A model generated the notes under the pieces. The model did no database searches. It was not told where the DNA came from and saw nothing but the letters and a program-made list of their open reading frames with translations. Below are positions 351 to 18,714 of a stretch of 35,767 nucleotides of DNA, one piece after another. Position numbers and translations under genes: made by a program. This DNA comes from Allomuricauda sp. (GTDB taxonomy: Bacteria > Bacteroidota > Bacteroidia > Flavobacteriales > Flavobacteriaceae), in contig JASBTS010000104.1 of assembly GCA_030148305.1 (NCBI GenBank), forward strand, positions 1-35,767, given 5' to 3'. How positions within the stretch are numbered: position 1 is the first letter of the stretch; every line of letters starts with the position of its first letter.

Positions 351-392
351 AGTTCAATGGTTTATGCCAATCAAAGAACATAAGTATTTGAT

Positions 393-2689: not shown

Positions 2690-3051
2690 TGTAGGGAACA
2701 TTGTTGATTGGGCTATCTGAGAATTTTATATCCTGGAAAGAGGAGCTTGAAAAATACATCGAAATGGATGTGGCCAGAAAATGGATAAATGGGTATTCCG
2801 AAATACTTCTGGCTGCAAAGGTAATGAGCTTAGCGTTGAAATGGTCTTTGTATAGTTTGAAAATTAGGATGGAATATTGGAGGTTGGGCCATTATTCGTT
2901 GACAAATCCCATATCAGATTCCCTGCCCTGTATCGTCAATATCTGGTTTTATGGAACATATAATATTACGGACCATCCCATCAAAACATAATATATCCCT
3001 TATGAGGGCAACAACCCGATTCGGAGCGTAATAGAGTGTAAAAACAAGCAT
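2690..3051. other. Intergenic stretch, no supported gene
   Basis: A 96-codon open frame runs from a TTG at 2701 to 2991, but it has no ATG near its start, no recognisable domain and no initiation signal. I treat the stretch as non-coding or as worn remnant sequence. The 60 bases before 3052 presumably carry the promoter of the redox fusion, but I see no clear consensus. Confidence 0.5.
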
Positions 3052-4461
3052 ATGGAAGAATTAAAATTATACGGGGCGGATTGGTGCCCCGACTGCCGCC
3101 GTGCAAAATCCTATTTAAAGGATAACGATATCGATTTTGAGTACATAGATGTTGATCTGGATAAGGATGCCACTGCTTTAGTAGAAAAAATCAATGCAGG
3201 AAAGCGCATCATCCCCACCCTGATCATCAATGGAAAAACGCATACGAACCCAGACAATGCAACCCTTGCCGATATCCTAGGCATTAACGATATGGCAACT
3301 GTAAAGCTTTTCGGGGCCGATTGGTGCCCTGACTGCCATAGGGCAAAAGGATATTTAAGGGATAATGGTATCCATTTCCAATATGTTGATGTTGATTTCC
3401 ATGACTGGGCCACTCAGAAGGTCGAATCAATAAACAAAGGAAAGCGGATCATACCCACTATCCTGATCAATGGAAAACCCTATAGCAATCCAGACAATGC
3501 CACGTTACGTGATGCTTTGCAGATAGAAACACGCAAGGAAACCAAAGTTTACGATACCATCATCATTGGCGGGGGGGCTGCAGGTCTGACCACGGCCATA
3601 TATGCCCAAAGGGATCGTTTCGAAACCATCATTTTAGAAAAAAAGACCATTGGCGGAAATGCGTTCCTGACCAAAAAAATCGAGAATTATCCCGGCTTTA
3701 CCAATATTTCAGGTCCTGCCCTTATGGAAAAGATGGAGTTTCAGGCTAGAACCTATGGGGCAGAAATTGCCACTGGGGTGGACGTAGAACATATAAAGAT
3801 GCTGGACAACAAGTTTGTGGTCACCTCGAAGACCGGAACTTATATCGGTAGAAGTATCGTGGCTGCCACCGGCTCGACCTACAGAAGGCTCCATATCCCG
3901 GGCGAGGAGGAACTGATAGGCTCAGGAATACATTTTTGCGCCACCTGTGACGGGGCTTTTTACCGTGACAGGAAAGTCATTATAATCGGTGGTGGGAACA
4001 GTGCTTTGGAAGAGGGTATTTTCCTCTCTGGATTTGTAAGAAATATAAAGCTCGTACACCGCTCCACAAAATTTTCCGCCTCTCCGGTTTATACAGAGAA
4101 AATCCCAAGGCTCAAGAATATTGAAACTCTTATGAACAGAACCCCAATGGAGTTTATTGCTGATGAAAAGGGGCTATTCCAAGGATTGAAGCTAAGGGAC
4201 AACGAATCGGGAAAGGAAGAGGTAATCGAGGCGGATGGGGCCTTTATCTTTGTCGGGCTCGTGCCCAATACAGAACTGTTCAAGGATGTGGTGCACTTGA
4301 ACAAGGGCGGTTTTATCACAACCAAAGGATTGGCAAAGACCTCAGTGGAGGGAATCTTTGCTGCAGGCGATTGTAGGGAGGGTGCCATAGCCCAAGTGGC
4401 GGCGGCCACCGGTGAGGGCGTCTTGGCCAGTTACGGGCTGAGGGAATACCTGAAAAACTGA
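3052..4461 (+). CDS. Glutaredoxin-glutaredoxin-thioredoxin reductase fusion
   Basis: This single 469-residue cytosolic protein has three redox modules. Residues 4-78 are a glutaredoxin-like domain with a CPDC active site (Cys12, Cys15). Residues 84-158 are a second, very similar one (Cys92, Cys95), offset by exactly 80 residues. Residues 166-469 are a complete low-molecular-weight thioredoxin reductase: FAD motif GGGAAGLTTAIYAQR (173-187), redox-active CATC (Cys296, Cys299), pyridine-nucleotide motif GGGNSALEE (313-321), and the C-terminal FAGDCR-type FAD motif. By family knowledge the reductase passes electrons from NADPH through FAD to its CATC pair; here the likely acceptors are the attached CPDC domains. 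After the nucleotide motif it has HRS, where the E. coli enzyme has HRR, so NADPH preference needs testing. It starts at an ATG with the first domain in register. Confidence 0.93.
   Translation: MEELKLYGADWCPDCRRAKSYLKDNDIDFEYIDVDLDKDATALVEKINAGKRIIPTLIINGKTHTNPDNATLADILGINDMATVKLFGADWCPDCHRAKGYLRDNGIHFQYVDVDFHDWATQKVESINKGKRIIPTILINGKPYSNPDNATLRDALQIETRKETKVYDTIIIGGGAAGLTTAIYAQRDRFETIILEKKTIGGNAFLTKKIENYPGFTNISGPALMEKMEFQARTYGAEIATGVDVEHIKMLDNKFVVTSKTGTYIGRSIVAATGSTYRRLHIPGEEELIGSGIHFCATCDGAFYRDRKVIIIGGGNSALEEGIFLSGFVRNIKLVHRSTKFSASPVYTEKIPRLKNIETLMNRTPMEFIADEKGLFQGLKLRDNESGKEEVIEADGAFIFVGLVPNTELFKDVVHLNKGGFITTKGLAKTSVEGIFAAGDCREGAIAQVAAATGEGVLASYGLREYLKN
3061..3525 (+). repeat. Internal tandem duplication encoding two CPDC domains
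   Basis: Segments 3061-3285 and 3301-3525 are related at DNA level with a 240-base period. Near-identical stretches include the GGGGC(G/C)GATTGGTGCCC run over the active site and the segment encoding KRIIPT-LIINGK. The resemblance points to a duplication within the gene, not to acquisition of two different domains. Confidence 0.85.
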
Positions 4462-4631
4462 AACTGAATTGCTGACAATGGAAAATGGCACCAATATAAA
4501 GCACCGGTATTTCCCAGTAAGAATCAATTCTTTCCGATATCGTAACGGATGCAATGGAACTTCTGAAATGACAGTAAAAAAGTCCTTAATGGTGAGTATC
4601 AATTCAAAAAAACAAACCCTATAGTAATCCA

Positions 4632-5015
4632 ATGGAACAGTGGTACGTGCCCATAACAATTTTGCCTGGAATCTGCCTGCTCATCTTATCCACTTCCAAT
4701 ATAATGATTGGACTGAGCAAGGAGATTCGACGTTTGCTTGCGGATCCGGATGAGGAAAATATATTAATTGAACGAAAGCTCTTACAGATGAAGTTGATCA
4801 ATCGGGCCATGGTTTTTCTATACCTTTCGGTCGCCGCCTTTGTGGTTTCCGGCCTATTGTCCGGGATAGCACAGACCATTTCCTACGATGCCACCACCTC
4901 CATTTATCTGCTCATCATAGGAATGGCGTTCGCCATGTTCGCCCTGCTATCCCTTATCATTTATTCGTTCAGAGCCGTCAAGATCAGGCAGGACCAATAT
5001 CATGATAAATGCTGA
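4632..5015 (+). CDS. DUF2721-like small membrane protein
   Basis: This 127-residue protein has three predicted membrane segments, near residues 8-25 (ITILPGICLLILSTSNIMIG), 62-84 and 91-113. A charged cytoplasmic stretch between the first two (RRLLADPDEENILIERKLLQ) ends in a positive tail. This layout, with a long charged loop after the first helix, fits the DUF2721 family, whose function is unknown. It follows the redox fusion by 170 bases and precedes a secreted protein by 65, all on the same strand. The ATG at 4632 is the only sensible start. I see no catalytic residues. Confidence 0.7.
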   Translation: MEQWYVPITILPGICLLILSTSNIMIGLSKEIRRLLADPDEENILIERKLLQMKLINRAMVFLYLSVAAFVVSGLLSGIAQTISYDATTSIYLLIIGMAFAMFALLSLIIYSFRAVKIRQDQYHDKC

Positions 5016-5080
5016 ATCGACCAAATACCGAAGATTACCTTTCCAAGGGAAAGGTATCCCGCATATCCTTGGAACCCTAA

Positions 5081-5962
5081 ATGTTTAAATATAAAATGAG
5101 AAAAATGAGAAAATTAAACACGTTTATCAATCTTTTCTGCTTCATTGCAGTACCCTTGGCACCGATGGTCTCGATGGCACAGGATCATCTTTCAGACCAT
5201 CTATTGTTTTATGCCTCCTTCGACAACGGCACCGATGCCGATTATGCAGTGGGTGATAAAGCCATCTATACGGCTAACAATAGAAAAGAAATATCCAAGG
5301 CCAGGCCTGGTCTGCTGAATCCCAATATCGCGTTGGCCAAGAACGTGGGGGTTACGGGCCATGCTCTACAATTTAAGAATAAAGGGGAGCACATAACGTT
5401 TTATCGCGCCCTGCGAAATATGGGATATTCTTCCAAAAATTGGAGCGGTGCCGTTTCTTTTTGGTTACAGTTGGATCCGGCACAAGATTTAAAACCAGGG
5501 TATAGCGACCCAATTCAGATAACCGATGTCAACTACAATGACGCTGCCCTTTGGGTCGATTTCACCAGGGATGACCCCAGGGACTTTAGATTGGGGATAA
5601 TGGGAGACCTTTTGGCATGGAACCCTGATAACAGTCAAGACGAAGAACTAACTGAGCAACGATTGGTCCGTGTTTCCTCGCCCCCCTTCAAACGTGGCAA
5701 ATGGACACATGTACTAATGAATTTCTCTGGGTTGAACACTGGAAAGGGATTTGCCGAACTTTATATAGATGGGAATTTCAGGGGGCGCATCGATCCTATT
5801 GTAGATCCCTTTACATGGGAAGAAGAGAACGCCTCCATACTGCTTGGACTCAATTATATTGGGCTGCTGGACGAACTTGCCATTTTCGAAAAAAGATTGG
5901 AGAAGGATGCCATTGACACCCTGAGCGATTTGGAGCAAGGGTTAAAGACCATTTTGGATTAG
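5081..5962 (+). CDS. Secreted LamG/concanavalin A-like domain protein
   Basis: The 293-residue protein begins with a signal peptide (basic start, hydrophobic TFINLFCFIAVPLAPMVSMA, likely cleaved before QDHLSDH). Three closely spaced ATGs (5081, 5096, 5105) could start it; all keep the signal. The mature part opens with LLFYASFDNGTDADYA and holds a typical jelly-roll order: SGAVSFWLQLDP near residue 125, KWTHVLMNFSG near 207, AELYIDGNFRG near 223, and GLLDELAIFEKRL near 265. That last motif is the hallmark of LamG-type ConA-like lectin domains, which bind glycans or proteins outside the cell. No catalytic acids of a known glycosidase stand out. It lies upstream of the large TonB-dependent receptor, so a surface role is plausible. 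Confidence 0.82.
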   Translation: MFKYKMRKMRKLNTFINLFCFIAVPLAPMVSMAQDHLSDHLLFYASFDNGTDADYAVGDKAIYTANNRKEISKARPGLLNPNIALAKNVGVTGHALQFKNKGEHITFYRALRNMGYSSKNWSGAVSFWLQLDPAQDLKPGYSDPIQITDVNYNDAALWVDFTRDDPRDFRLGIMGDLLAWNPDNSQDEELTEQRLVRVSSPPFKRGKWTHVLMNFSGLNTGKGFAELYIDGNFRGRIDPIVDPFTWEEENASILLGLNYIGLLDELAIFEKRLEKDAIDTLSDLEQGLKTILD

Positions 5963-6346
5963 GGCCATAATAGGGAGCATCGCTTTGCCTCATCTCCATT
6001 GATCATGACCCAATGGATAAACCTCTGTTTGAAATTTTGGGCGTGGGCGGTCCAGCGATATCCAGCCCATTGGAAAACTGCGTGGAATCCCACCACGATT
6101 CCATGGGACCTCCTACTACTTTTGCTGGCAAAGACAAGGGTGTGGAAACCATAATTTAGGCTGGACCGGCTAAGGAATTAAAGTAAAAATGAAATATTGT
6201 TGGCCACGCGCCAATATGAAACACAGTTCCCTTTTGCTTTAAAAAAAAATCAACTTAATGTTAAGGTGTGGGACGATGTTAAAAGTTAACACGGTCTGGA
6301 TAGTGTCCAAAAGTAGTTTTGGCCTTCAACTTCAAAAGACACTATT
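5963..6346. other. Leader region before the TonB-dependent receptor
   Basis: There is no convincing gene. A 48-codon frame (6013-6159) exists but lacks any recognisable feature. The last 110 bases become AT-rich and contain the palindrome CTTAATGTTAAG (6254-6265) and several TTAAC/GTTAA words, then a possible -7 element at 6314. This fits a regulated promoter region for the receptor. Confidence 0.45.
6314..6321 (+). promoter_or_regulatory. Possible Bacteroidota -7 element for the receptor
   Basis: TAGTTTTG matches the Bacteroidota -7 consensus TAnnTTTG and lies 25 bases before the ATG of the receptor. No good -33 TTG box is seen at the expected distance, only TCTGG near 6295, so this is tentative. 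Confidence 0.3.
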
Positions 6347-9300
6347 ATGAGCAATTACCATGTTTTAAAATTAAGGATGGTCAGGTCCTTGAAGGTCGTA
6401 TCGTTGCTGGTGGCCCTAATGGCCATGGCCAACACCTTCGGACAGGCGACAAATTCATCCATTGAGGGAATAGTAACAGATTTGAATGAACTCCCACTGG
6501 CAGGGGCATCCGTATTTGTTAAGAATGAATCCACAGGTTTCATCTCCGGTACCGTGACCAACCAAAACGGGACCTATAAAATCCAACAATTACCACTGGG
6601 TGGGCCCTATACAGTAACCGCCCAATACCTAGGTTTCAAGGATATGGTAAAGAAGGGGTATACAATCGATCTCAGCGATGCACTGACCATAGATTTCGTA
6701 TTGCAGGAATCGACAACGGAACTGGATGAGGTCGTGGTATCCTCGAACAATTTCACCAAAAGAATCGGACAGATCGGGGCATCCACAAAGATCAGTGCCG
6801 GCCAGATCAAAAACCTTCCCACCGAGGGCAGAAATTTTACGGGACTTACCAGCCTCTCCCCTTTACAGGGCGGTGGGGCCATCAACCTCGCCGGCCAACG
6901 GCGCACCTCCACCAACATTACCATTGACGGGGTCAACTTCAGGAACACGTTGACCGCGGGAGAGATCGGTAGGGGGCCCTATACCATTTCACAGGAGGCC
7001 ATCCGTGAATTTGAGGTCACCACAAACGATTATGACGTGGTCCTGGGACGCCAAGGTGGAGGGGCCATAACCTCCGTGACCAAATCGGGCACCAATGAGT
7101 TCAGTGGAAGTGCATTCTTTTACCATCGGGCCGACGGATTGCAGAGCAAGTACAATATCAGGGGTGAGGAACGGATTGCCGATTTCTACAATTCACAGTA
7201 CGGTATTAGCCTTGGGGGTCCCATCATCAAGGATAAATTACATTTTTTTGCCGTATATGAGCGACAGGATGCCGGAGAGCCCCAGACCATTGCGGATATC
7301 CAAAGTGACGACGATCAAAACCTTTTGGGCATTTCGCAGGCCAACCTTGACAGGTTTCTTCAAATCGGTAGGAGCCTTTATGGATTGAGCGACTCGCAGC
7401 AGACAGGACAGTTCGACCGGGAAAACGAGGCGAACAACCTTTTTGTTCGTCTGGACTGGCAAATTAACGACAAGCACCGTCTTACCCTAAGAAACCTCTA
7501 TAACAAATGGGAAGATCCCTTCAGTGTCAATGACAACTCGAACATCAATGTCGCGGAATCCTATTCGGATTTTGAATCCAGTGAGAACAGTACGCTTCTG
7601 TCGTTGCGATCCATTCTGTCCCCGAATGTTACCAACGAGTTCAAAGTACAGTACCAAAGGGCGGAAAGGGCATTTACACCGAACTCGGAACTGCCACAGT
7701 CCAACATCCCACGGGCCATTGTGGAGGTCTCCTCCGTTTTGCCCAATGGAAATACAAGAAATAGAAGTGTGCAATTGGGCGGCCAACGCTTTACCCCGGA
7801 GACCAACTTGGAGAAGCAATGGCAAATTGCCAATACCACCTACATCAGTTCGGGCAAATACAACTTCACCTTTGGAACGGACAACATCATCACCTATTTG
7901 GAGACATTGTTATCCAATGAGCAAAATGGACGCTTTTTTTTCGATTCCTTGGATGACTTTGAGAACTTGAGCCCTTCTAGGTATGCCAGGGAGGTCCCAT
8001 TGCAGGGACTTCCATTGGTGGAACAGACCGTAATCGATCTATCGCTTTTTGGCCAGGTGGAATTTGATATTGCCCCCAACCTTAACTTGATGGCAGGTCT
8101 GCGCTGGGACGCCACAACATTTTTGGATGCGGCCGAGTTCAATCCCGTGGTCTTCGAGGAACTCGGTATCCGCACGGATGAAAAGCCAGAGGATTTTGAT
8201 AACATACAGCCAAGATTCCAGTTGACATGGAACATCAAGGGACAAAACAAGGACATCCTGAAGCTGGGCGGTGGCATTTTTACCTCACAGCCCCATTACT
8301 ACGCCCAGGTCAACAATATCCAAAATAGTGGAACCCTATTGGGGGCTATTGATGTGACTGGGGATGCGGTTCCATCGCCTGATTTTATTTCCTACCGGAA
8401 CGATCCCAGTACCGTACCTGGAGTACCTGCCGGGGTAACCCCGTTTTCCACCATAAATGCCGTCAGTCCAGATTTTGAGGTCCCCAGTATTTACAAGGCG
8501 AATTTAAGCTATACCCACTTTTTTGGTGATCGATACAGTCTGGGGCTGAATGCCATCGTCAGCCATACCACCAATAATTATGTCTATCAGGAAGCCAATT
8601 TGGTCCCTGAACCCTTCTTTGTCACACCGAACGAAGGTCGGGAGGTGTTCGTGCCCTCCGCGACCATTACAGAAAACGGTTTGACCGACTGGACCAACAG
8701 CCGTATCTCTGATTTGGTCGGCAGAACCTTGGTACTTACCTCGGATGGTGTTTTGGACAATGTATCCCTCATCCTAGAGGGTTCCGCAAGAATCGGTGAG
8801 GATGGGTACTTGAATGCGAGCCTGACATTGAACCGAACAAAGGACAATTCCTCCTACAACTGTTGTGTGGCCAATACGTCCACCTTTTTGCCCGTTGAGG
8901 GAGATCCCAGAGATTTGAACTACGGCTTTTCCGACAACCATTTCGATACCAAACTGGTCATCAATGGAAATACCCCTACCTGGAAGGGCTTTACCTTGGG
9001 AGCGACCATCGTTGGAGAGGGTGGAACCCGGTATTCCTTGCACGTTGATGACAATACAAGTGCCAATGGTGATTTTAACCTGCGAAACGATATCGCCTAC
9101 ATTTTCGATCCCAACAGTCCCGGCACACCACAGGAGATTACGGATGCCTATAACCAAATATTGGCCGATCCCGAAACCCCCGATGGATTCAAGGACTATC
9201 TGAGGGAGAGCTTCGGTGGCTTTGCTGAGCGAAATGGAGGGAAAAACCCGTTTAGGGCCATAGTGGATATTAGGTTACAGAAACGGTTTGGTTTCAACAA

Positions 9301-9532
9301 GAACAAACAGAGCATCGAACTTTCCGCGGACGTATTCAACTTTGCCAACCTGTTGAACAAGGAATGGGGGCGTACCAACAATTTTGGCAGAAGAACAGAC
9401 TTTATGCGGATCAACGGTTTTGATCCCGTGGCCAATTCCTACAGTTACGGTGTACAGACGGGGGCCGGGACCGAGCCCATAAACGGAACCCCTTGGCGCA
9501 TGCAATTGGGGGTACGTTACTCATTCAACTAA
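6347..9532 (+). CDS. TonB-dependent outer-membrane receptor (Oar-like)
   Basis: The 1061-residue protein has a signal peptide (hydrophobic VVSLLVALMAMANTFG, residues 17-32). A carboxypeptidase-regulatory-like beta-sandwich follows at about 38-120 (IEGIVTDLNELPLAGASVFV), then a TonB-box-like TTELDEVVVSS (123-133). The plug runs over about 145-250, with INLAGQRRTSTNITIDGVNF and GGGAITSVTKSGTNEFSG. The rest is a long beta-barrel region. This order fits Oar-type TonB-dependent receptors, which import large ligands using ExbBD-TonB energy. No SusD-like partner gene is next to it, so it is not a classical SusC/SusD pair. A phosphodiesterase gene follows after a terminator, which may hint at phosphorylated ligands. 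An alternative start at 6377 would shorten the basic leader. The substrate is unknown. Confidence 0.92.
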   Translation: MSNYHVLKLRMVRSLKVVSLLVALMAMANTFGQATNSSIEGIVTDLNELPLAGASVFVKNESTGFISGTVTNQNGTYKIQQLPLGGPYTVTAQYLGFKDMVKKGYTIDLSDALTIDFVLQESTTELDEVVVSSNNFTKRIGQIGASTKISAGQIKNLPTEGRNFTGLTSLSPLQGGGAINLAGQRRTSTNITIDGVNFRNTLTAGEIGRGPYTISQEAIREFEVTTNDYDVVLGRQGGGAITSVTKSGTNEFSGSAFFYHRADGLQSKYNIRGEERIADFYNSQYGISLGGPIIKDKLHFFAVYERQDAGEPQTIADIQSDDDQNLLGISQANLDRFLQIGRSLYGLSDSQQTGQFDRENEANNLFVRLDWQINDKHRLTLRNLYNKWEDPFSVNDNSNINVAESYSDFESSENSTLLSLRSILSPNVTNEFKVQYQRAERAFTPNSELPQSNIPRAIVEVSSVLPNGNTRNRSVQLGGQRFTPETNLEKQWQIANTTYISSGKYNFTFGTDNIITYLETLLSNEQNGRFFFDSLDDFENLSPSRYAREVPLQGLPLVEQTVIDLSLFGQVEFDIAPNLNLMAGLRWDATTFLDAAEFNPVVFEELGIRTDEKPEDFDNIQPRFQLTWNIKGQNKDILKLGGGIFTSQPHYYAQVNNIQNSGTLLGAIDVTGDAVPSPDFISYRNDPSTVPGVPAGVTPFSTINAVSPDFEVPSIYKANLSYTHFFGDRYSLGLNAIVSHTTNNYVYQEANLVPEPFFVTPNEGREVFVPSATITENGLTDWTNSRISDLVGRTLVLTSDGVLDNVSLILEGSARIGEDGYLNASLTLNRTKDNSSYNCCVANTSTFLPVEGDPRDLNYGFSDNHFDTKLVINGNTPTWKGFTLGATIVGEGGTRYSLHVDDNTSANGDFNLRNDIAYIFDPNSPGTPQEITDAYNQILADPETPDGFKDYLRESFGGFAERNGGKNPFRAIVDIRLQKRFGFNKNKQSIELSADVFNFANLLNKEWGRTNNFGRRTDFMRINGFDPVANSYSYGVQTGAGTEPINGTPWRMQLGVRYSFN

Positions 9533-9577
9533 AACATCAACCCACTAAGTTGGTTTATGCTGTTTAATTTGCAATTA

Positions 9578-9617
9578 GGAAGGGCATGGCATCGCCCAGG
9601 TCCTTCCCTTATTTTTT
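9578..9617 (+). terminator. Rho-independent terminator after the receptor gene
   Basis: GGAAGG (9578-9583) pairs with CCTTCC (9602-9607) and the inner GGGC with GCCC (9592-9595). A T-rich run (TATTTTTTAAT) follows. It lies 45 bases after the receptor stop and covers the ATG at 9586, which argues that the next gene starts later. Confidence 0.65.
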
Positions 9618-9633
9618 AATCTTTATAGTACCT

Positions 9634-10995
9634 ATGAAAAATATAATAATTTTAGTTTTAATCGCAACTTTGGCCTTGGCACAGACCATAAATGGCCAAA
9701 AAAAATCATTATCAGAGCATGTTGTGCTCATTTCCATCGATGGGTTCCGTCCAAACTTTTATCTGGAGGATCAGTGGCCGGCGCCCCACCTGAAAACTAT
9801 GGCCAAGGAGGGTGTCCACGCCAAAGGTGTCCGGGGAGTGTTTCCTTCCGTCACCTATCCTTCGCATACCACCATTATCACAGGGGCCTATCCCGACAAG
9901 CATGGCATCTTTTACAACAGTCCCTTTGAACCCGAGGGCAGAACGGGCCGCTGGTACTGGGAGAGCAAGTTGATACAGACCGCCACCCTATGGGATGCCG
10001 TACGGGCCTCGGGGAAAAAAAGTGCGAGTCTGATATGGCCGGTATCCGTAGGTGCACCCATTGATTACAATATACCAGAGGTATGGACCCTTGATAGGGA
10101 ATATGGCCGGATACAGCCCATGCGGGACAATGAAAATCCAAAAGGGTTGTTACGGGAAATGGAAATTGCCGTTCTGGGACAGATGAACGAGGGCACCTTC
10201 AATGGCGATTATCTGAACCGTGAGGACCGAACAGGTGAAATGGCTGCCTATATCCTAGAAAAGTACAGGCCCAATCTCATATCGGTCCATTTGATCGCAA
10301 CTGACCATTTTCAGCATGAACAAGGTCGCAATGGTCAGAAAGTATTCACCTCCATAGCTGCCATCGACCGGGCCATTGGAAAAATAGTGGAGGCTGCCGA
10401 GAGATCACAACTTTTGGAAAACACAACATTCATCATTACCGGGGATCATGGCTTTGTGGACATCCATTCCGCTTTGAGCCCCAATATCTGGCTCTTGGAG
10501 GAAGGTCTTTTGGAGGATCGGGAATCAGGTTGGGGCAATTGGAAGGCCGTATTCCATACCTCCGGGGCAGCGGCCTTTTTGCACTTAAGGGACGTGAACG
10601 ATAAAAAGACAGCTGAAAAGGTAAGGGCCAAGCTCCAAAATCTTCCCGATGCTTACAAAAAGCTTTTCAGAATCGTTGAACGGGACGAATTGTACCAAAT
10701 AGGTGCCGACCCCAATGCCGCCTTGGCCATAACCCCGGTTCCCGGAGTGGCCATGTCCGCCTCACTTGATGGCGATGTACTTAAACCAAGAAGAGGTGGG
10801 ACCCATGGGTATTATCCCGATTTCCAACAGATTCAGACAGGTTTCGTTGCGTGGGGATCAGGTATTGCCAAAGCCAAAAATCTGGAGATTATGGGTCTCG
10901 AGGATATAGCACCCTTGATATCCAAACTCTTGGCACTTGATTTTAAGACCAAGGATGGAGTGTTGTATCCCGGAATTTTAGCTGCCGGAGAATAA
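9634..10995 (+). CDS. Secreted ectonucleotide pyrophosphatase/phosphodiesterase
   Basis: This is an alkaline-phosphatase superfamily enzyme of the type I phosphodiesterase/NPP family (453 residues). The ATG at 9634 gives a clean signal peptide (MKNIIILVLIATLALAQTIN); the in-frame ATG at 9586 lies in the preceding terminator hairpin. Expected two-metal active-site residues are visible: Asp36 in ISIDGF, the nucleophile Thr74 in FPSVTYPSH, Asp224 and His228 in TDHFQHEQG, Asp271-His272 in GDHGF, and His391 in GTHGYYP. By family knowledge it hydrolyses phosphodiester or pyrophosphate bonds in nucleotides or lipid head groups, here in the periplasm or outside the cell. Position after the TonB receptor suggests a shared scavenging role. 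Its last 18 bases overlap the 3' end of the convergent Crp/Fnr gene. Confidence 0.93.
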   Translation: MKNIIILVLIATLALAQTINGQKKSLSEHVVLISIDGFRPNFYLEDQWPAPHLKTMAKEGVHAKGVRGVFPSVTYPSHTTIITGAYPDKHGIFYNSPFEPEGRTGRWYWESKLIQTATLWDAVRASGKKSASLIWPVSVGAPIDYNIPEVWTLDREYGRIQPMRDNENPKGLLREMEIAVLGQMNEGTFNGDYLNREDRTGEMAAYILEKYRPNLISVHLIATDHFQHEQGRNGQKVFTSIAAIDRAIGKIVEAAERSQLLENTTFIITGDHGFVDIHSALSPNIWLLEEGLLEDRESGWGNWKAVFHTSGAAAFLHLRDVNDKKTAEKVRAKLQNLPDAYKKLFRIVERDELYQIGADPNAALAITPVPGVAMSASLDGDVLKPRRGGTHGYYPDFQQIQTGFVAWGSGIAKAKNLEIMGLEDIAPLISKLLALDFKTKDGVLYPGILAAGE

Positions 10996-11622
10996 AGGGC
11001 GGCCCTCCTTCTTAAAATAGTTTGCAACGGTTTGACGGGTGGCCCCTATAAGGTCACCCAAATCTTTTTGGGTCAATAGCTCAAATAGATTGTGTTGTAG
11101 ACCTTCCGCGTCCAGGATCTCAATATCAAACGACGTTTTTAGAAAAAGTAACTTTTCGGCATGGCTTTTTTCATTGATCTTGCGGAGTTTTTTCTCGGTA
11201 GTGCACCAGCGCTTGATCAAATAGGATATGAACCATTCGGTAATCACGGGCTCTTCTATTATGACCTGTTTGAAAAAGGAAAGATCATATTCACGTATCC
11301 TACATTCCACTAAGGCCTTTGAGAACTCAAAAAACTGATTGTTGAGGTATTTGAAGTTTCCAAAAAAGTCCTTGTCATGGAGGATATCATAAATGAACTC
11401 CTCACCGCTTTCCGTATAACTGCCCAATTTAACGGCCCCGTCCATAATTTCATAGACACGGTCATTGTTTGCGGGAGGACAATAAATATAGTCACTTTTA
11501 GCAACAAGAATTTCCCGCACCAAATCCCCAATATCCAACCCAAGTTCAATGGTCAAAGTTTCCAATAAATCGAATTGGTTGTATTTTTTGTTCCTCAATT
11601 CTACCCTGTTATCCATTTTCAA
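10978..11622 (-). CDS. Crp/Fnr-family transcriptional regulator
   Basis: This is a 214-residue regulator. An N-terminal cyclic-nucleotide-binding-like beta-roll occupies about residues 45-115 (YEIMDGAVKLGSYTESGEEF, then DILHDKDFFGNFKYL). A long dimerisation helix follows, and a winged helix-turn-helix ends the protein (LTQKDLGDLIGATRQTVANY, 183-202). The beta-roll lacks the Arg-Ser phosphate-binding signature of true cAMP receptors, so it probably senses something else or only uses the fold. It starts at an ATG at 11622 (alternative 11616). It is divergent from the truncated AhpD-like gene and overlaps the phosphodiesterase gene tail-to-tail by 18 bases. The divergent layout suggests it once controlled the AhpD-like gene. 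Confidence 0.9.
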   Translation of the reverse strand: MKMDNRVELRNKKYNQFDLLETLTIELGLDIGDLVREILVAKSDYIYCPPANNDRVYEIMDGAVKLGSYTESGEEFIYDILHDKDFFGNFKYLNNQFFEFSKALVECRIREYDLSFFKQVIIEEPVITEWFISYLIKRWCTTEKKLRKINEKSHAEKLLFLKTSFDIEILDAEGLQHNLFELLTQKDLGDLIGATRQTVANYFKKEGRPLFSGS

Positions 11623-11883
11623 AACAATTTTATTGCATCAATACATGCATTTTTTGGATTTGAAATTAGGAATCACAGATAAACTTAAGGTTACCGTTTT
11701 ATAATTTATATGCAAAGAACACACTTTTCCGTCATAGGTGAACAGACCCAAGGTTTCCCAATGGGAATAATCGACAATCAAAAGGGAAAAACATCCAAGG
11801 TCCTGTGCACCACCACAAAATACTTTTACATTACCAATGCTCTACCGACACAACAATATCTAAAGGAATTTATACGAATGCAT

Positions 11884-12294
11884 ATGCTCAAAGTCCCGTC
11901 TAAAAAAAATGTAAGCGATCAAAACCGCAAAATTTTTGAATATCTTGAAAAGGCCTTGGGTTTTGTACCCAACCTTTTTGCAACCTATGCCCATAGTGAA
12001 AACGCCCTAAAAACCTATTTGGAACTGTCCAATGCGAACACTTCGCTAAAAATGTTTGAAAAAGAAGCGGTCAACCTCGTTGTGAGCGAGGTCAACAATT
12101 GTAGATACTGTATATCGGCCCATACGGCCTTGAAGCCTGAATTTCCATCTGATGCCGTTCAGAGAAGACCGATAAAAGGATTTGAAAAGCATAAGTCCTG
12201 GACTTTCCTTGCGCGTAATCCTCTTTTATCGGTCGGTGGCCACTTACGGTCATCGAGGCTATTCCCGAGTGAAAGACAACGGTCATTTAAATGA
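11884..12294 (+). pseudogene. Truncated carboxymuconolactone decarboxylase (AhpD-like) copy
   Basis: The first 83 residues from the ATG at 11884 closely match the intact paralogue at 29919-30467. Shared parts include FVPNLFATYAHSENALKTYL and the redox motif VNNCRYCISAHT (Cys73, Cys76, His80). The frame is open further upstream to 11710, but that part has no match to the family. Similarity ends abruptly near base 12132. The remaining 53 codons are unrelated and run through an inverted repeat. The second half of the fold, with its helices that complete the active-site pocket, is missing (136 against 182 residues). I read it as a remnant cut by an insertion or deletion; a short functional product is possible but unlikely. 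Confidence 0.8.
12168..12233. repeat. Inverted repeat at the broken end of the AhpD copy
   Basis: ACCGATAAAAG (12168-12178) and CTTTTATCGGT (12223-12233) are perfect 11-base inverted repeats around a 44-base spacer. The spacer itself contains the palindrome AAGTCC-T-GGACTT (12193-12205). The element begins about 35 bases after homology to the paralogue ends, so it may be part of whatever disrupted the gene. Confidence 0.7.
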
Positions 12295-12452
12295 CTATAA
12301 TCTTAAAAGAAAGCTCTATGTAAATGGCCGGCTCTAAACTAAGGGAGTAGCAAGAGGATAGCTTGCTATCGCAACTCTATTGATTTATTTTCCTTCGGAA
12401 AAGTCCATATTTCAAGGAGTTTCACAAAATATCATTTCTTCACGTTTACTTC

Positions 12453-12512
12453 ATTTTTAGCTTAAAAATGCATTCAGCCCAATAAAACCAATGAATTTTT
12501 AGCTTAAAAATG
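12453..12512. repeat. Paired-hairpin unit 1
   Basis: ATTTTTAGCTTAAAAATG occurs twice, at 12453 and 12495, 42 bases apart. Each copy folds as a 7-base-pair stem with a GCT loop. Between them lies TTCAGCCCAATAAAA (12473-12487), shared with unit 2. Confidence 0.8.
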
Positions 12513-12584
12513 ACTTTTTGGAGTTTTTAATTGATTGCCTACAATACTTAAAAAATCATTGCCTTGCTTTTTGAAAGCAATCGC

Positions 12585-12644
12585 ACTTTTCACGGAAAAA
12601 GGGGTTCAGCCCAAGAAAATAAGAGTATTTTTCACGGAAAATTA
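12585..12644. repeat. Paired-hairpin unit 2
   Basis: TTTTCACGGAAAA occurs twice with its loops (ACG) at 12592 and 12634, again 42 bases apart, around TTCAGCCCAAGAAAA (12605-12619). It aligns to unit 1 without gaps at an offset of 132 bases. The stem-closing A-T pair of unit 1 is C-G here in both arms. Confidence 0.8.
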
Positions 12645-12953
12645 AGAAATATGATTATGCTTTGGTTAAAATTTGCCTCGCTCAGTAGTATTAGTTAAAG
12701 TAAGATTTGGGGCTTGCAGCACTCCACTTCGTTGCGTTCGCTATTATCTCGAATTCCATTTTGGGAAAGGGATTTCAATCCATAGTGAATAGCCCTTTCT
12801 AAAAACAATTTTTTCCAGCCCACAGCTCAAAAAAAAAGTCCAATTCTAGTCCCATAAAATATCAATTAACGATACTACTAAAAAAGACCACGAATGGAAC
12901 TTATAACTCTAGAGGATATTCAATTCAGAATTTTGTTCTCTAAATTGGCCTAT

Positions 12954-14258
12954 TTATGGGACTTGTCTACTATCAAACTCCAAGCCATCCGAGAATTTGA
13001 CCTCGCCCTTCCCATTGGTAAGCTCAATATCATCCACCATGCCAATACTGTTAAAGAAGAAGCTGAGTTCCATGATATCTCCGATAGCCTCTTCATATGC
13101 GGTCGTCAATACTTCGGTTCCGTTTAGACTCAGCTGCATTTCCTTATCGATGGTCTGGACTTCAAAACTGTTCCATCCGTATATCGGGATGGTAAGTTGG
13201 GTAAGATCTTGGGTTTTTCCATCATGTAAGGTGTCACCGACCCTAATCTGAAGTTCACTTCCGCAACCCCTATTTCCTATCATGATCCAATAATATCCAT
13301 TGGTTCCCTGTAGATGAACATTAAAGATAGGGCAATCTACATTTTCGAGAGGGTCCATTTTAAACGAACCTTTGTAAGTAAGATTATCGCCATCGACCAT
13401 AAAATCCTTGACATAATAATAGGCCAATTGAAATTCCTTGTGCACATCGATTCCTTTCTTAGCAAGTGTTTCTTTGTCTATTGACAAATAATTTTTTTTT
13501 GGCCAAAGGTTCTTGTCAAAAGTGAAGATTTTAGACATCGGCTGTCTTGCCGCCATGAACCAATCTTCATATACCACATGAACGGGCATCTCTTTGATAA
13601 TTTCATCATCAGCAAAGAGCTTGGCCGTAAAGTAGCCCGGAACGTAATAGATATCTGTACGCTCTTGAGTACCCTTGAAAATTTCCACTTTTCTAGAGGG
13701 ATCCCAACTTTGCTGTAGAAAAAAGCGATTGGCATCAATGGCCTCAATGTCGTAGGTGAAGACCACGGTGTTTGGCAATTCGTTGTCAAGTGTTTTTCTA
13801 TGGTCAAAAGCCACATTGACCATTTCTTTCGTGGTGTACCGTTTTTTTTGAAGCATTCCATCACCCCCGATAAGGATTAAAAATACAGGGATAGCCAGCA
13901 AGAGTAACACCCCTACTTTATTTAATTTTTTAAAATGCCTGACAAAAGTGGGTTTTGAAGAGCTTTTCTTTTGCACGGCTATATTCGACAAAGAAGCGGA
14001 TTTGAGCACCTGCCAGGTTTTTCCATACGCTGTCTTGGTCAAGGCATCTAGCGTAGAAATGTGGGGAAGGCGTTGATGGTCATTCGACCAGATCCGTTTT
14101 AAAGTCGACACGCTCAACCTGCAATCGCTCCGTTCTTCTATGAAATAGGAAAGAAAGTCAAAGTCTTTTTGGGACCAAGCCTCCGTGTCCTTAAGATTGG
14201 CTTCCACAGCAATCTTCTTTTTAACATCCCATAAAAGCATTTGATCTAATATTGTCAT
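12954..14258 (-). CDS. Membrane-tethered DNA-binding-type protein with ConA-like outer domain
   Basis: This 434-residue protein spans the inner membrane once (GVLLLLAIPVFLILI, about residues 116-130). The cytoplasmic 110 residues carry a pattern common in Bacteroidota (FDFLSYFIEERSDCRLSVST, then LKRIWS and HISTLDALTKTAYGKTWQVL). It resembles a small helical DNA-binding-type module, but I cannot name a family with certainty. The outer part contains a PKD-like strand region (about 160-225) and a C-terminal ConA-like segment, with WNSFEVQTIDKEMQLSLNGT and GMVDDIELTNG. Family comparison is from memory. It is divergent from an operon of secreted proteins and may sense an outer ligand and act on that promoter region; this is inference. 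It starts at an ATG at 14258. Confidence 0.75.
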   Translation of the reverse strand: MTILDQMLLWDVKKKIAVEANLKDTEAWSQKDFDFLSYFIEERSDCRLSVSTLKRIWSNDHQRLPHISTLDALTKTAYGKTWQVLKSASLSNIAVQKKSSSKPTFVRHFKKLNKVGVLLLLAIPVFLILIGGDGMLQKKRYTTKEMVNVAFDHRKTLDNELPNTVVFTYDIEAIDANRFFLQQSWDPSRKVEIFKGTQERTDIYYVPGYFTAKLFADDEIIKEMPVHVVYEDWFMAARQPMSKIFTFDKNLWPKKNYLSIDKETLAKKGIDVHKEFQLAYYYVKDFMVDGDNLTYKGSFKMDPLENVDCPIFNVHLQGTNGYYWIMIGNRGCGSELQIRVGDTLHDGKTQDLTQLTIPIYGWNSFEVQTIDKEMQLSLNGTEVLTTAYEEAIGDIMELSFFFNSIGMVDDIELTNGKGEVKFSDGLEFDSRQVP

Positions 14259-14381
14259 TTTTCTGATTATCAGTGGTTTGTGTAAGTGAATCTAAAATGA
14301 TTGAAAAATGGTTTGAAAATGACCATGCCCAATTCAAAAGTGCTTATAGTTTCGGCCTTATATATACCAAAGACAACGACT

Positions 14382-15491
14382 ATGCGAATCCGTTACACTA
14401 ATTTACTGATTATTGTCTTTTTGATAACGATGTTTGTGAATGGCCAAAAATCCATCTTCCGACCAGGGGAATATACGGTATACTCCGAAGACAATGAAGA
14501 AGTAATGGTGATGGACACCCTTTTCAAAGGGGAAAAGGCCTTGATGCTAGACGGTAATCGCCGCTCCATCGCATTGCTGGAAGGGATAGACACAAAAAAC
14601 TTTAGGGTAGAAATGGATATTGCCGGAAAAGTGATGTCTGGGCTGGGGTTCCACGCCAAGGATGGGTTGAACTATCAGTTCATCTACTTTCGGCCTGGAT
14701 ATGGAAATACCAGGGAAGCCATTCAGTACATACCCATCTACAACGGTGCCTTGAGTTGGGTCTTTTATAATTATCCGGTGTATGAGACTACGGCGGATGT
14801 AGAATCCCTAGAATGGTTTCATGCCGCTTTTGAGGTCAGGGGCAATTACTTGAAGGTCTTCGTCAATGGTGAGCCCGAGCCCAAAATGGAAATTCCTTTT
14901 TTGGAAAACCCTATAAGTGGTGGAAAGCTCTTACTGAGAAGCCTTTTTGGCCCATCCTATTTTGCGAACATTACCTATCGACCATTGGCTATTCCTGAAA
15001 AGGAAGAAAATTCACAAACTAAAAAAGACTTTTTGACCCAATGGGAAATATCCCGACAGTTTTCTCGAGACACAACTGCCCAGTATTTTGAAGGTATTCT
15101 GAAGCGGGCCCAAGCTCTCGATAATTGGAAGTCAATCCATGTCCCTGAGGATGCCTATGTGAACTTTACCCGATACTTTGAATATCCAAACGGAGTAGTT
15201 GTGGCGAAGACAAATATCGAATCTGATAAAGCAGCCGACCAACACCTCCATTTTGATTTTGTGGGACGTATCAAAATCATGTTTAATGGCAATACCCTTT
15301 TTGCAAACAAGAATATAAAGTTTGAAAGAGTATTTGATGGTACATATACGGTCGGACTTCCCTTCAAAAAGGGGGATAATGAACTTGTCGTAATCGCAGA
15401 GGGCGATGCCGCCTTTTTTGGAAAGGGGTTTCGGTATCTGGGCAGAAACCAGCACACCAATTGGGGCTTTATTGCCAAAATCAAACCATAA
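14382..15491 (+). CDS. Secreted ConA-like domain protein, function unknown
   Basis: The ATG at 14382 gives a good signal peptide (MRIRYTNLLIIVFLITMFVN); the frame is open back to 14301 but that would bury the signal. Of 369 residues, the first half resembles a laminin-G/ConA-like sandwich: KNFRVEMDIAGKVMSGLGFH, then AAFEVRGNYLKVFVNGEPEP and a GGKLLLRSLFG strand. The second half has a beta-rich tail, with FVGRIKIMFNGNTLF and KKGDNELVVIAEGDA, like the jelly-roll appendages of glycosidases. No catalytic motif is evident. It is the first gene of a tight operon: the next gene starts 14 bases after its stop. It lies divergent from the membrane-tethered regulator. Confidence 0.75.
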   Translation: MRIRYTNLLIIVFLITMFVNGQKSIFRPGEYTVYSEDNEEVMVMDTLFKGEKALMLDGNRRSIALLEGIDTKNFRVEMDIAGKVMSGLGFHAKDGLNYQFIYFRPGYGNTREAIQYIPIYNGALSWVFYNYPVYETTADVESLEWFHAAFEVRGNYLKVFVNGEPEPKMEIPFLENPISGGKLLLRSLFGPSYFANITYRPLAIPEKEENSQTKKDFLTQWEISRQFSRDTTAQYFEGILKRAQALDNWKSIHVPEDAYVNFTRYFEYPNGVVVAKTNIESDKAADQHLHFDFVGRIKIMFNGNTLFANKNIKFERVFDGTYTVGLPFKKGDNELVVIAEGDAAFFGKGFRYLGRNQHTNWGFIAKIKP

Positions 15492-15505
15492 CCAATCAAA
15501 ATCAT

Positions 15506-17488
15506 ATGAAACGCACACACATTTTAATACTTCTGTTTTTTACTGTGGCCCTTGTTGTAAGTGCAAATAATGGCTCGGTGGCCTTGGCAGATCCCGTAAA
15601 GAATATCGACATCGATGGAGATTTTGGGGATTGGCCCGATACTGCATTGCAATACCCCCTCTCCCATTTTAGTTCAAGCTTTAAAAGTGAGGGCAAGCTT
15701 GATCTCGCAGCTTATTTTCGCATTGGGTATAACCTTAACGAACGGGCACTGTATGTCGCTGTAGAGGTCACGGACGATCACTTTGTTCAAAATCCCGGCG
15801 ATTCACGGTGGTGGGTCCACGATATGCAGGTGCTGTATTTGGAACCTCGCCATAGCAAGGAACCTGTCGGTGTGCTGGCCCTTGAAGCCACTGCCTACTA
15901 TTCAAAGATTGTGGAGCAAAACCTCAATTGGGACCCCTATGTTAAGAATGCAAGCTGGAATATGGTCGAATGTGAAGTGATAAGGGTGGATAATCGTACC
16001 CGCTATGAGTGGAAGATCATCCTTGGGGATCACATCGCAGCAGGCAGAACCTTAGGGTTTGATTATACCGTTTTTGACAAAGATGCAACGGAAGGATATC
16101 CTGATACCCTGGGTTGGGGCAGGAACAATGGCATCAAGCACGAATGCTCCCAATGTCTGGGCGATGTGCTGTTGGTTCCAAGTGAAGCACAATTGGCGAC
16201 CCTTTCGGGGAAAGTGGATGTTGATCAGAAATTTGCGGAGGGTGCCACTTTACGTTTGGAACCTTTAACAGCAACCGAAAACCATCTGGACGTTGCACTG
16301 GACAGTGTTGGTACTTTTACACAGAGGGTGTTGCCTGGTACTTACAGGCTGTTACAGCCCGACCGATTGTTCTGGGAGGATCCAGTACATCTGTACCGCT
16401 TGAAAGCAGTAGGGCAAGAAACAGTGACCCTCCGAAAAAGGGGATCTTCACATTTGGAGCTTCCCCGAATGACAAAATTGGTGCCTAGACCTGAGTTGAT
16501 TTCCAAAAAGGGTCTGCTACATGAACCCAATGCAACTACCACACAAACGATAGACGATTTTGTGACGGCCTATATGGAACATGATATGGTTCCAGGGGTA
16601 TCACTGATGGTTATTCGTGAGGGTAAACCTTGGTATTATAAAACCTATGGGGTGCAAAATAGGGTAACCGGTGAGCCCATCACCAAAAATACATTGTTCG
16701 AGGGAGCATCGATGACCAAGCCCATATTTGCCTATGTGGCCAATTTGATGGCGGAAAGGAATCAGCTGGATTTGCAACGGCCCCTTCATGAATACCTGGC
16801 CTTTCCTGAACTGGAGGAGTATCCCGACTACAAAAAAATGACTGCTTACCATGTACTGAGCCACAAGTCGGGGATGCCCAATTGGGGCCGAACCATGCTG
16901 CGCGAACCAGGAACAGCCTACGGCTATTCCGGCGAGGCCTTCGAATACCTCAAACGGGTCATTAAAAAAATCACCTTTCGTGACATCGAGGACATCTTCC
17001 GTGAGGAACTGATTAAACCACAAAATATTGGCAGAATGGAGTTTAAACGGAGTCCGGCCCTACGCCAAGTGTTTTCTAGGGGCCATACTGATGGCACACC
17101 CAGCATACGCGTATTGCCAGAGGAGCCCATGGTGGCCTATAGTCTTCATACGGAGGCTCGAGCCTACACGGATTTCGCGCTGACCCTGTTGGAGCGACGT
17201 GGGCTCAAAGCTGAAACGTATAATAGAATGATGCGGATCCATTCCCCTTTTCCCGAAAACAGAAGGGAGACGGACCACCCCAAGGAGGGTATGGGTCTGG
17301 GCATAGCCATCTCGGAATCCAAATTTGGAAAGATGTTCTACCACAGTGGAAACAGTGGGGATTTCAAGTGCCTCTTCCGTATATATGAGGATTTGAACAT
17401 GGGTTTTGTCGTTTTTACCAATTCCAACACAGGTAATTTTTTAGCGGATGATTTGGCGTTGCTCTTGGTAGAGGGAAAAAGGAAATGA
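15506..17488 (+). CDS. CBM9-like domain fused to beta-lactamase-type serine hydrolase
   Basis: This is a 660-residue secreted protein. The ATG at 15506 gives a signal peptide (MKRTHILILLFFTVALVVSA). Residues 32-225 resemble a family 9 carbohydrate-binding-type domain: IDGDFGDWPD at the start, then ALYVAVEVTDDHF. Residues 230-320 look like a regulatory beta-sandwich (LSGKVDVDQKFAEGATLRLE). Residues 345-660 are a class C beta-lactamase/penicillin-binding-type hydrolase: Ser402-x-x-Lys405 in EGASMTK, Tyr474-Ser-Gly as the YxN counterpart, and HSGNSG in place of KTG. By family knowledge this fold covers esterases, D-aminopeptidases and carboxypeptidases; the substrate here is unknown. Fusion to a sugar-binding-type domain suggests a glycan-linked ester or peptide. 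Confidence 0.87.
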   Translation: MKRTHILILLFFTVALVVSANNGSVALADPVKNIDIDGDFGDWPDTALQYPLSHFSSSFKSEGKLDLAAYFRIGYNLNERALYVAVEVTDDHFVQNPGDSRWWVHDMQVLYLEPRHSKEPVGVLALEATAYYSKIVEQNLNWDPYVKNASWNMVECEVIRVDNRTRYEWKIILGDHIAAGRTLGFDYTVFDKDATEGYPDTLGWGRNNGIKHECSQCLGDVLLVPSEAQLATLSGKVDVDQKFAEGATLRLEPLTATENHLDVALDSVGTFTQRVLPGTYRLLQPDRLFWEDPVHLYRLKAVGQETVTLRKRGSSHLELPRMTKLVPRPELISKKGLLHEPNATTTQTIDDFVTAYMEHDMVPGVSLMVIREGKPWYYKTYGVQNRVTGEPITKNTLFEGASMTKPIFAYVANLMAERNQLDLQRPLHEYLAFPELEEYPDYKKMTAYHVLSHKSGMPNWGRTMLREPGTAYGYSGEAFEYLKRVIKKITFRDIEDIFREELIKPQNIGRMEFKRSPALRQVFSRGHTDGTPSIRVLPEEPMVAYSLHTEARAYTDFALTLLERRGLKAETYNRMMRIHSPFPENRRETDHPKEGMGLGIAISESKFGKMFYHSGNSGDFKCLFRIYEDLNMGFVVFTNSNTGNFLADDLALLLVEGKRK

Positions 17489-17513
17489 ATAACGAATTTT
17501 AATTGATAAAACC

Positions 17514-18515
17514 ATGAAAAATAAGATAATAAGTTATCTTCTACTGTCCCTATGTCTTGGTACCGTTTCCTGTTCAGAGCGGGGCACAGAAAAGGCACAT
17601 AACAACATTGCGAAAACCGCGGATAGCATTCCAATGATGGAGAGTTGGTTCCTGTCCGCCGGGGATTGGGAAACAGACCCTCAAATTTATGTGAGGGAAT
17701 TTGGTACTGGCACCGATACCGTGCTGTTGCTTCATGGGGGATGGGGTGCAGAACATAGCGGCATGGTCGATATGGTTCGTGAATTGGAAAAGGAATACAA
17801 ATTTTTCGCCCATGAACAGCGGGGTTCCCTACGTTCGCCCTTTCCTGATTCCCTTATCACCTATGAACACCATATCGAGGATCTAGAGCTTTTAAGGAGA
17901 GAGCTAGGGGTCGACAAGCTCAAACTCTTAGGGCACTCCATGGGGGCTGTACTTGCGAGTGCCTATGCCCAGCGATACCCAGAACATGTGAAAAAACTCG
18001 TTCTGGTCAGCCCGGCCTATCTCAAAAATCCCTTTCCCGAAGAGGATAATGAATTACTTAAAGCCTCCCAAAATACCTTCGAGAAATTTAGCAAACGCCC
18101 TGAGGTAAAACAGGAACTTCAGAAATATAACCTTACAAGGAAAGAATCCAGTCTTTCCTCAAAAGAGAAAACCATAGGGAATAGGATTGGTTTTGCCGCA
18201 AGGATGCTCTATGATGTTGCTAATTGGCATAAGCTAAATAATGGAAAGGCATTGTATAAGGGCAATGTATATGGATTGACCGAGAGTACCTATCCCGAAA
18301 ATGGTTGGGACTTTATTGAGGAATTTAAAAATCATTCCTATCCAGTTAACATAATTATCGGGGAAAATGATTTCTTGGATATGGGGAACCACATCACCCG
18401 AAAATGGGGCGAAGAAATACCAAACGCTGAATTTACGAGTATTGAAAAAGCAGGGCACTTACCATGGATTGATAAACCCCATGAGCTTGCGGTGGCCCTT
18501 AGAAACAGCCTTTGA
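17514..18515 (+). CDS. Alpha/beta-hydrolase lipoprotein, proline iminopeptidase-like
   Basis: The 333-residue protein starts with a lipoprotein-type signal ending in GTVSC (Cys20), so it is probably membrane-anchored outside the cytoplasm. The alpha/beta-hydrolase core shows the oxyanion-hole motif LLHGGWG (72-78), the nucleophile elbow GHSMG (Ser142), an acid in IGENDFLD and the His in KAGHLPW near the C-terminus. The HGG-type oxyanion motif and overall size resemble peptidase family S33 (proline iminopeptidase), but esterase activity cannot be excluded. It begins 25 bases after the serine hydrolase stop and is the last gene of this operon. Two consecutive extracytoplasmic serine hydrolases suggest a stepwise breakdown of one substrate. 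Confidence 0.86.
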   Translation: MKNKIISYLLLSLCLGTVSCSERGTEKAHNNIAKTADSIPMMESWFLSAGDWETDPQIYVREFGTGTDTVLLLHGGWGAEHSGMVDMVRELEKEYKFFAHEQRGSLRSPFPDSLITYEHHIEDLELLRRELGVDKLKLLGHSMGAVLASAYAQRYPEHVKKLVLVSPAYLKNPFPEEDNELLKASQNTFEKFSKRPEVKQELQKYNLTRKESSLSSKEKTIGNRIGFAARMLYDVANWHKLNNGKALYKGNVYGLTESTYPENGWDFIEEFKNHSYPVNIIIGENDFLDMGNHITRKWGEEIPNAEFTSIEKAGHLPWIDKPHELAVALRNSL

Positions 18516-18714
18516 ATAAAAATTTTACACAATGCATTAGTGCTTTAATCTTAACATGTAGAAGTCTTTTGATTCGAACCTTTTTTGGGCAGCCGATCCT
18601 TCTTCTATATCTGTCCTAATAAACTGCCGTTTTATAGTACTGAGCTATATTGGTCTCACTTTTTGAAAATCTGCACTTATGTAATTATATTGTATTGGAC
18701 ATTTTCAGACTTAT

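Follow-up and report, generated by a model that had tools for sequence, protein, structure and literature searches.

The window, by which we mean the whole stretch of 35,767 nucleotides analysed here, contains two similar units of 55 bp that are probably a tandem pair of multi-specificity oriT mimics on an island without a relaxase. The basis for this reading is comparative: units of the same anatomy abut the first gene of BfmA-MobB mobilisation operons in integrative elements of Flavobacteriaceae, and their variable arm sequence follows particular residues of BfmA. From such comparisons we infer binding, nicking and transfer, together with the continued activity of the copy in the window.

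Each unit consists of a 13-bp arm, 29 bp of middle sequence and a second 13-bp arm, with an arm-to-arm spacing of 42 in both units. The arms have the form TTTT-word-AAAA, and a single word serves both arms of a unit; between units 1 and 2 the loop changes from GCT to ACG and the closing pair from A-T to C-G. The middle part of each unit contains CAGCCCAAnAAAA, within TTCAGCCCAAtAAAA at 12473-12487 in unit 1 and TTCAGCCCAAgAAAA at 12605-12619 in unit 2. The features are as follows.

12349 to 12763, + strand: module of about 415 bp holding both units, common to 7 of 7 compared two-unit loci at 74-79% identity
12455 to 12509, + strand: unit 1, candidate oriT mimic with word AGCTT (reverse complement AAGCT), from the window scan and word comparison
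12455 to 12467, + strand: arm 1 of unit 1, TTTTAGCTTAAAA, predicted BfmA site from word-residue covariation
12475 to 12487, + strand: core of unit 1, CAGCCCAATAAAA, 13 of 13 to the consensus CAGCCCARTAAAA, predicted location of the nic region
12497 to 12509, + strand: arm 2 of unit 1, TTTTAGCTTAAAA, predicted BfmA site from word-residue covariation
12587 to 12641, + strand: unit 2, candidate oriT mimic with word CACGG, from the window scan and word comparison
12587 to 12599, + strand: arm 1 of unit 2, TTTTCACGGAAAA, predicted BfmA site from word-residue covariation
12607 to 12619, + strand: core of unit 2, CAGCCCAAGAAAA, 12 of 13 to the consensus
12629 to 12641, + strand: arm 2 of unit 2, TTTTCACGGAAAA, predicted BfmA site from word-residue covariation
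12675 to 12741, + strand: most strongly conserved part of the module, to the right of the array, GCCTCGCTCAGTA...GGGGCTTGCAGCACTCCACTTCGTTGCGTTCGC, from sequence comparison

A preliminary description of this DNA had reported two identical arms 42 bases apart in each unit and an ungapped alignment of the units at 132 bases; the arms prove to be exact, and the offset between the units is indeed 132 bp. It had also found no gene feature to account for the stretch, in agreement with the ORF list, which places both units in the intergenic interval 12295-12953. Scanning all of the window for similar palindromic 13-mers separated by 41-44 bp returned these two places only, and no site with the core motif appears in 10 mononucleotide shuffles of the window. 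Further units of other words next to the array were searched for across the window and none was found.

The site recurs in relatives. The unit pattern with free words, searched with up to 3 mismatches, finds a match in 49 of the 71 genus genomes, versus 5 of 71 for the reversed control, some of the 3-mismatch rows being chance. (The genus takes in [Muricauda] okinawensis, since the coordinates in genome G423 agree with the named loci L101 and L103.) Among 397 genomes drawn from the family, the free-word pattern matches 48 and the reversed control 3, a share of the 3-mismatch rows again being chance. Many of the family matches listed have the same anatomy with other words and with the two arms of a unit alike, so that the earlier observation of arms remaining equal while the word changes is true of many relatives as well as of the window. 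In a few family units the second arm is the reverse complement of the first. A draw from the phylum gave a pattern match in 17 of 148 genomes; the matches listed outside the family all have 3 mismatches, show no matched arms by eye and look like chance, and a spread beyond the family was rejected. Within the source genome, TTCAGCCCAAnAAAA has one further match, without arms, and contig C78 carries a unit of word GGTGA before a bfmA.

The position of the unit in relatives points to its function. In 75 of 80 named loci the unit, with a spacing of 42 or 43 bp, ends -1 to 3 bases from the start codon of bfmA; in the other 5 no unit was found at the start codon, which counts against the oriT reading. 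A unit is also present at 70 of 85 distinct bfmA genes of the genus, mostly as close to the start codon. BfmA matches NCBIfam NF041200 (104 bits, cut-off 24) and is encoded by the first gene of the BfmA-MobB mobilisation operon. The MobB relaxase comes after it (NF041495 equivalog, 408 bits versus a cut-off of 200; Pfam DUF5712), and HxH is present in 107 of 108 long MobB sequences. A MobB-like ORF is the next after bfmA in 49 of 51 readable loci of the genus and in 59 of 73 elsewhere. Those loci that were looked at in detail also encode, further on, a TraG/VirD4-like coupling protein; on their upstream side they have ssb and radC or a different small gene. According to the available text of PMC4652767, the usual place of an oriT is next to the Mob genes. 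Because it abuts the bfmA start codon in so many of the named loci, the unit is likely to be the oriT of the BfmA-MobB operon, and on sequence comparison as a whole we consider it very likely that it is the oriT region of such modules. The units in the window match the bfmA-linked site in spacing (42) and in their cores (13 and 12 of 13). They are not beside a mobilisation operon, no BfmA-, MobB- or coupling-protein-like ORF being near, and for this reason we call them mimics and not cognate oriTs.

If BfmA recognizes the arms, the word should depend on the protein. We collected 154 pairs of a bfmA and its unit (145 after removal of identical ones) and compared, for each BfmA column, a difference there with a difference in the arm word, the rest of the protein serving as covariate. 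Columns 12, 14 and 34 rank first of 110, with r values of 0.467, 0.443 and 0.319, the next column reaching 0.219. Among close pairs, column 14 differs in 93% of the 1240 pairs with different words and in 1% of the 577 pairs with the same word; for column 12 the values are 95% and 15%, respectively. The same three columns lead when relaxase distance is removed (0.57, 0.46 and 0.28; 124 loci), and for these 124 loci the best relaxase column does not exceed 0.16 against the arm word. In the resulting table of 17 word classes and 145 proteins, each word has mainly one residue pair at positions 12 and 14: S-S for CACGG (32/33), T-K for TACTA (18/19), K-G or M-G for TCAGA (26/26), T-S for AGAGT (9/9) and A-K for GGTGA (8/9). 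For AGCGT and GTNAC the residue pairs vary. The pairs G-R, T-R and T-S are each found with two or three words, and other residues must therefore contribute. Given this tracking, the arms are very likely BfmA sites.

On trees built without the word-tracking columns, the word changes at least 41-43 times, a figure inflated by the weak trees that short proteins give; well-supported branches hold only 1 to 6 independent changes per word, and no single test reaches 0.05. Among the changes listed, the residues go the same way as the words or do not differ, and never go in the opposite direction. One locus that could not be classed (L091) was left out of the tree test. The core also varies with BfmA, the distances giving an r of 0.48 with relaxase distance removed. 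Between core distance and relaxase distance, with BfmA distance removed, r is 0.04, and covariation thus does not support recognition of the core by MobB.

We propose that BfmA is a ribbon-helix-helix-like accessory protein. An AlphaFold2 model of the monomer, of low confidence overall (pTM 0.39), has helices at residues 17-30 and 34-48, following a well-predicted extended stretch to which no strand is assigned. Foldseek with this model ranks CopG first (E 1.0), with MatP and Arc below, all hits having an E of 1 or worse; a sequence search of the PDB with the BfmA profile gave nothing better than E 0.46. Ribbon-helix-helix proteins read the major groove with alternate residues of the strand, as described in the available part of PMC8136818, and by analogy BfmA residues 12, 14 and 16 would be the alternate groove-reading residues. 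Since the word tracks BfmA residues and such proteins read DNA in this way, the arms are most probably recognized in double-stranded form.

The words of the window units can be compared with this table. Unit 2 has the word CACGG, which it shares with bfmA-linked units where the BfmA strand is F(E/K/D)SxSIK (FESLSIK-like). AAGCT, the reverse complement of the unit 1 word, is the second-arm word before BfmA proteins with FRTV(S/C/G)IK at five loci (L146, L152, L183, L230 and L253). The source genome, which is 80% complete, has two BfmA matches, with strands FAALKVK (unit of word GGTGA) and FRAVRIK (arms TATTGTTACAATA and AATTGTAACAATT), and a cognate BfmA for either window unit was not seen among these two. 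The second class was also noted at locus L214 of this genome (G000:C136, 393-962 and 1345-2646), where the BfmA gene is directly downstream of a tyrosine integrase and is preceded by those divergent arms; it represents a BfmA class further removed, with arm words of its own.

Among the genus matches listed there are 126 units, of which 43 are bfmA-linked, all of them solitary (no second unit within 150 bp), and 83 are orphans. Of the orphans listed, 69 fall into 30 arrays, 21 pairs and 9 triples, each on one strand and with gaps of 131-134 bp between units in 39 of 39 cases. The arms within a unit of these listed arrays are identical in 37 of 69 and differ by at most one base in 61 of 69, against shuffled means of 6 and 14. 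A word is repeated in none of the 30 listed arrays, against a shuffled mean of 8.3 (P 0.0001), or P 0.0002 when counted by 25 distinct types, although the kinship of arrays weakens both values. GTTGA, the commonest bfmA-linked word (11/43), is found in no array among the matches listed, and this counts against the oriT reading. A search for exact arms only, in 460 kb of 30 orphan-unit loci, returned 55 sites, and in all 55 the core agrees at 11 or more of 13 positions, which means that not only the arms but also the core is still needed by something. Orphan arrays are best read as acting as multi-specificity oriT mimics. A chance origin of the units was considered and rejected, on the pattern search versus its controls, the shuffles of the window and the core kept in the arms-only sites.

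No BfmA-, MobB- or coupling-protein-like ORF was found in the 31 fetched orphan-unit loci, the window included. The genome of relative G384, which is 99% complete, has three arrays and gave no BfmA match and no MobB match in a MobB search that returned 11, 10 and 2 in three positive controls, so arrays can persist with no partner found in the genome. A MobB search run without a positive control gave none in G384, G448, G457, G444, G000 and G401.

The surroundings of the array in the window fit an island in part. To the left is an AhpD-domain gene (11710-12294, + strand; TIGR00778 over cut-off, other matches below it) and to the right a 434-codon gene (12954-14258, - strand) with no Pfam or NCBIfam match. 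The match to the 415-bp module begins at the same window base in all seven two-unit loci compared. Its best conserved stretch, at 12675-12741, is a possible element end, and the window copy has no Rfam match. The right part of the module (at most 5 mismatches; 6 in the window) is present in 15 of the 28 loci (array or orphan) that were checked for it, lying next to the array at two-unit loci and about 3-5 kb further on at the others, and pieces of the conserved stretch occur twice in relative G401, on the contig of a bfmA. Window positions 12935-18579 are 91% identical to G401, the match stopping to the left, and only scattered pieces of 1-12936 occur elsewhere in that genome. The array would thus border a segment absent from G401 at this place, as expected for an island. 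A glyceraldehyde-3-phosphate dehydrogenase gene at 1688-2689, in the left part that is not syntenic with G401, has a 70% DNA match elsewhere in G401 and is possibly cargo or a paralogue. No integrase or mobilisation gene was found among the window proteins scanned. Of the 31 mapped orphan-unit loci, 12 have an integrase no more than about 5 kb away and 16 have one anywhere in the fetched stretch; it is immediately upstream of the array in five two-unit loci (L035, L036, L195, L199 and L212). Attachment (att) repeats were sought in 14 loci and none was convincing.

The preliminary description had taken the fold to be kept while the sequence changes, as in a recognised structure, and the recognition of a structured RNA or of a single-stranded hairpin must be weighed against the oriT reading. 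Unit 1 folds better as single-stranded DNA than its shuffles (z -2.9), but unit 2 does not stand out (z -1.4), and no Rfam family matches the stretch. Of 138 array arms, 67 lack a complementary closing pair, as do 41 of the 220 bfmA-linked arms that have the exact form TTTT-N5-AAAA. These broken pairs, the reverse-complement second arms and the tracking of the word by two BfmA residues argue for recognition of double-stranded DNA by a protein; a kept fold as the cause is not supported, and a recognized RNA or hairpin is extremely improbable. Of the idea of a recognized structure, what survives is that something in trans seems to recognize the site, probably as DNA duplex and not as fold. A binding site for a single-strand nuclease and a transposon-end, or mobile-element, array had been offered as well; both come close to an oriT. 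Another explanation is that the units are only operators through which BfmA represses its own gene, the orphan arrays being decoys that titrate the BfmA proteins of several elements and so regulate or block these elements. The second arm abutting the bfmA start codon would fit autoregulation, and several words per array would fit such decoys. A decoy would need the arms only, yet the 13-base core is kept in every one of the 55 orphan arm pairs, and we consider this explanation unlikely.

The array could also be a recombination site of a neighbouring tyrosine integrase, in keeping with the 12 of 31 loci that have an integrase within about 5 kb, its place immediately upstream of five two-unit arrays and the conserved stretch between array and flank. 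The units are found at bfmA and not at integrases, however, in 75 of 80 named loci and for 43 of the 126 genus units listed, and the arm word follows BfmA residues; a role of this kind is very improbable. A different question is whether the copy in the window is dead, the integrase and the rest of the island having been lost. With no integrase seen in the window, where five two-unit loci have one directly upstream, and with an integrase at only some orphan loci, the window copy may be a remnant. On the other side, its four arms are perfect and its cores agree at 13 and 12 of 13 positions, whereas in L034 and L200 the second unit has changed arms; the window also retains the 415-bp module, and an integrase may lie outside the contig. 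We regard a dead copy as a minority possibility, to be taken more seriously than the other alternatives.

If the units are oriT mimics, a plausible scheme is that BfmA binds the two T4-word-A4 arms, four helical turns apart, as double-stranded DNA, and positions the MobB relaxase at the intervening core, CAGCCCA-TAAAA, after which one strand would be nicked at the core and led to the coupling protein. Unit 1 (AGCTT/AAGCT) would serve a BfmA with an FRTVxIK strand and unit 2 (CACGG) one with an FESLSIK strand, so that two or more kinds of helper could act in trans to move an element bearing the array and no mobilisation genes.

The closest precedent, by analogy, is the oriT mimics of the pWBG749 family in Staphylococcus aureus. 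In that family, according to the available portions of PMC8136818 and PMC4652767, the ribbon-helix-helix protein SmpO sets oriT specificity, which one N-terminal residue can switch, and as many as three mimics occur on one passive plasmid, their subtypes differing in most cases (58/67). As far as these sources describe it, the two systems would share a ribbon-helix-helix-type accessory gene between oriT and relaxase gene, two sites within the oriT and an orientation of the sites that is not critical. They differ in that the present system belongs to Flavobacteriaceae and has BfmA and MobB, each matching its own NCBIfam family, in place of SmpO and SmpP; the arms are 42 bp apart here and 65-67 there, and 17 word classes stand against five subtypes. 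The units here are in tandem on one strand at 131-134 bp, whereas S. aureus plasmids with two oriTs have them on opposite strands without exception in the available text of PMC4652767, whose authors suspected that the DNA separating same-strand pairs is lost through relaxase recombination. A plasmid origin was rejected, one BfmA and the 415-bp module having no match in 72,556 plasmid records.

Other mobilisable elements also offer parallels. The available text of PMC5704250 describes MGIs as integrative mobilisable islands without a relaxase, with an oriT like that of SXT-type ICEs. The arrays would resemble them in the lack of a relaxase, the helper-like oriT and, at some loci, the integrase; MGIs as described there are from Firmicutes and Proteobacteria and have one oriT per island, in contrast to the two or three tandem units of different words found here. 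The window itself has no MobB-like relaxase and no integrase or att site that we found; the identity with G401 stops at 12935. The mob operons of Bacteroides (mobABC of CTn341; BfmA, BtgA) share the family names NF041200 and NF041495. The oriT of CTn341 reportedly lies upstream of mobABC. The available text of PMC5729914 mentions the CTn341 oriT and nick site without giving the sequence, and multiple oriTs per plasmid are noted in the part of a review available to us (PMC11389934). In the literature covered, mainly open-access titles and abstracts on BfmA and oriT, on tandem, array or mimic oriTs and on oriTs of Flavobacteriaceae, we found no description of this site.

We lean towards a more general form of the proposal, in which chromosomal islands of Flavobacteriaceae assemble polyvalent oriT cassettes of two or three head-to-tail mimics, with a period of 131-134 bp and different words, allowing transfer by several incompatible helper families. 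The words and BfmA residues 12 and 14 would then be a natural recognition code, and units may be exchanged by recombination at the core, which mixed-arm units such as AACGG/AGCGT might reflect. If this is true, a rule of which mobile elements can move which others, within a large bacterial family, could be read from sequence, passive islands could be recognized without any conjugation gene, and helpers of more than one kind may be able to carry a passive DNA island along. The table of 17 word classes and 145 proteins would serve to test the way in which a ribbon-helix-helix protein reads DNA and in which its specificity switches. Tandem oriTs on the same strand pose a question of their own, since the staphylococcal two-oriT plasmids in the available text of PMC4652767 never had them on one strand.

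Finally, we note several observations on the loci compared. The conserved stretch GCCTCGCTCAGTA...GTAAGATTTGGGGCTTGCAGCACT was seen at about 10438 in L194, 11162 in L201, 10511 in L202, 11481 in L208 and 8323 in L210. In L040 a unit with reverse-complement arms lies directly before a short ORF (8629-8916), which we take to resemble an IS200-type transposase. The arrays of L193, L194, L196-L198, L201-L204 and L207-L211 are beside a module in which a protein of about 400 aa is accompanied by up to three small proteins, at least one, of about 115-168 aa each, and often by an HTH regulator; the protein of about 400 aa has a HEPN match (PF05168) in L193 and none in L196. Quite different types of arm and core (ATTTGCGGCAAAT, TTTTACAGTAAAA) occur near arrays in L047 (6903-7215) and L050 (6708-6882), from other genera, and in L197 (7522) of the genus, and arrays may thus span still more distant BfmA classes.
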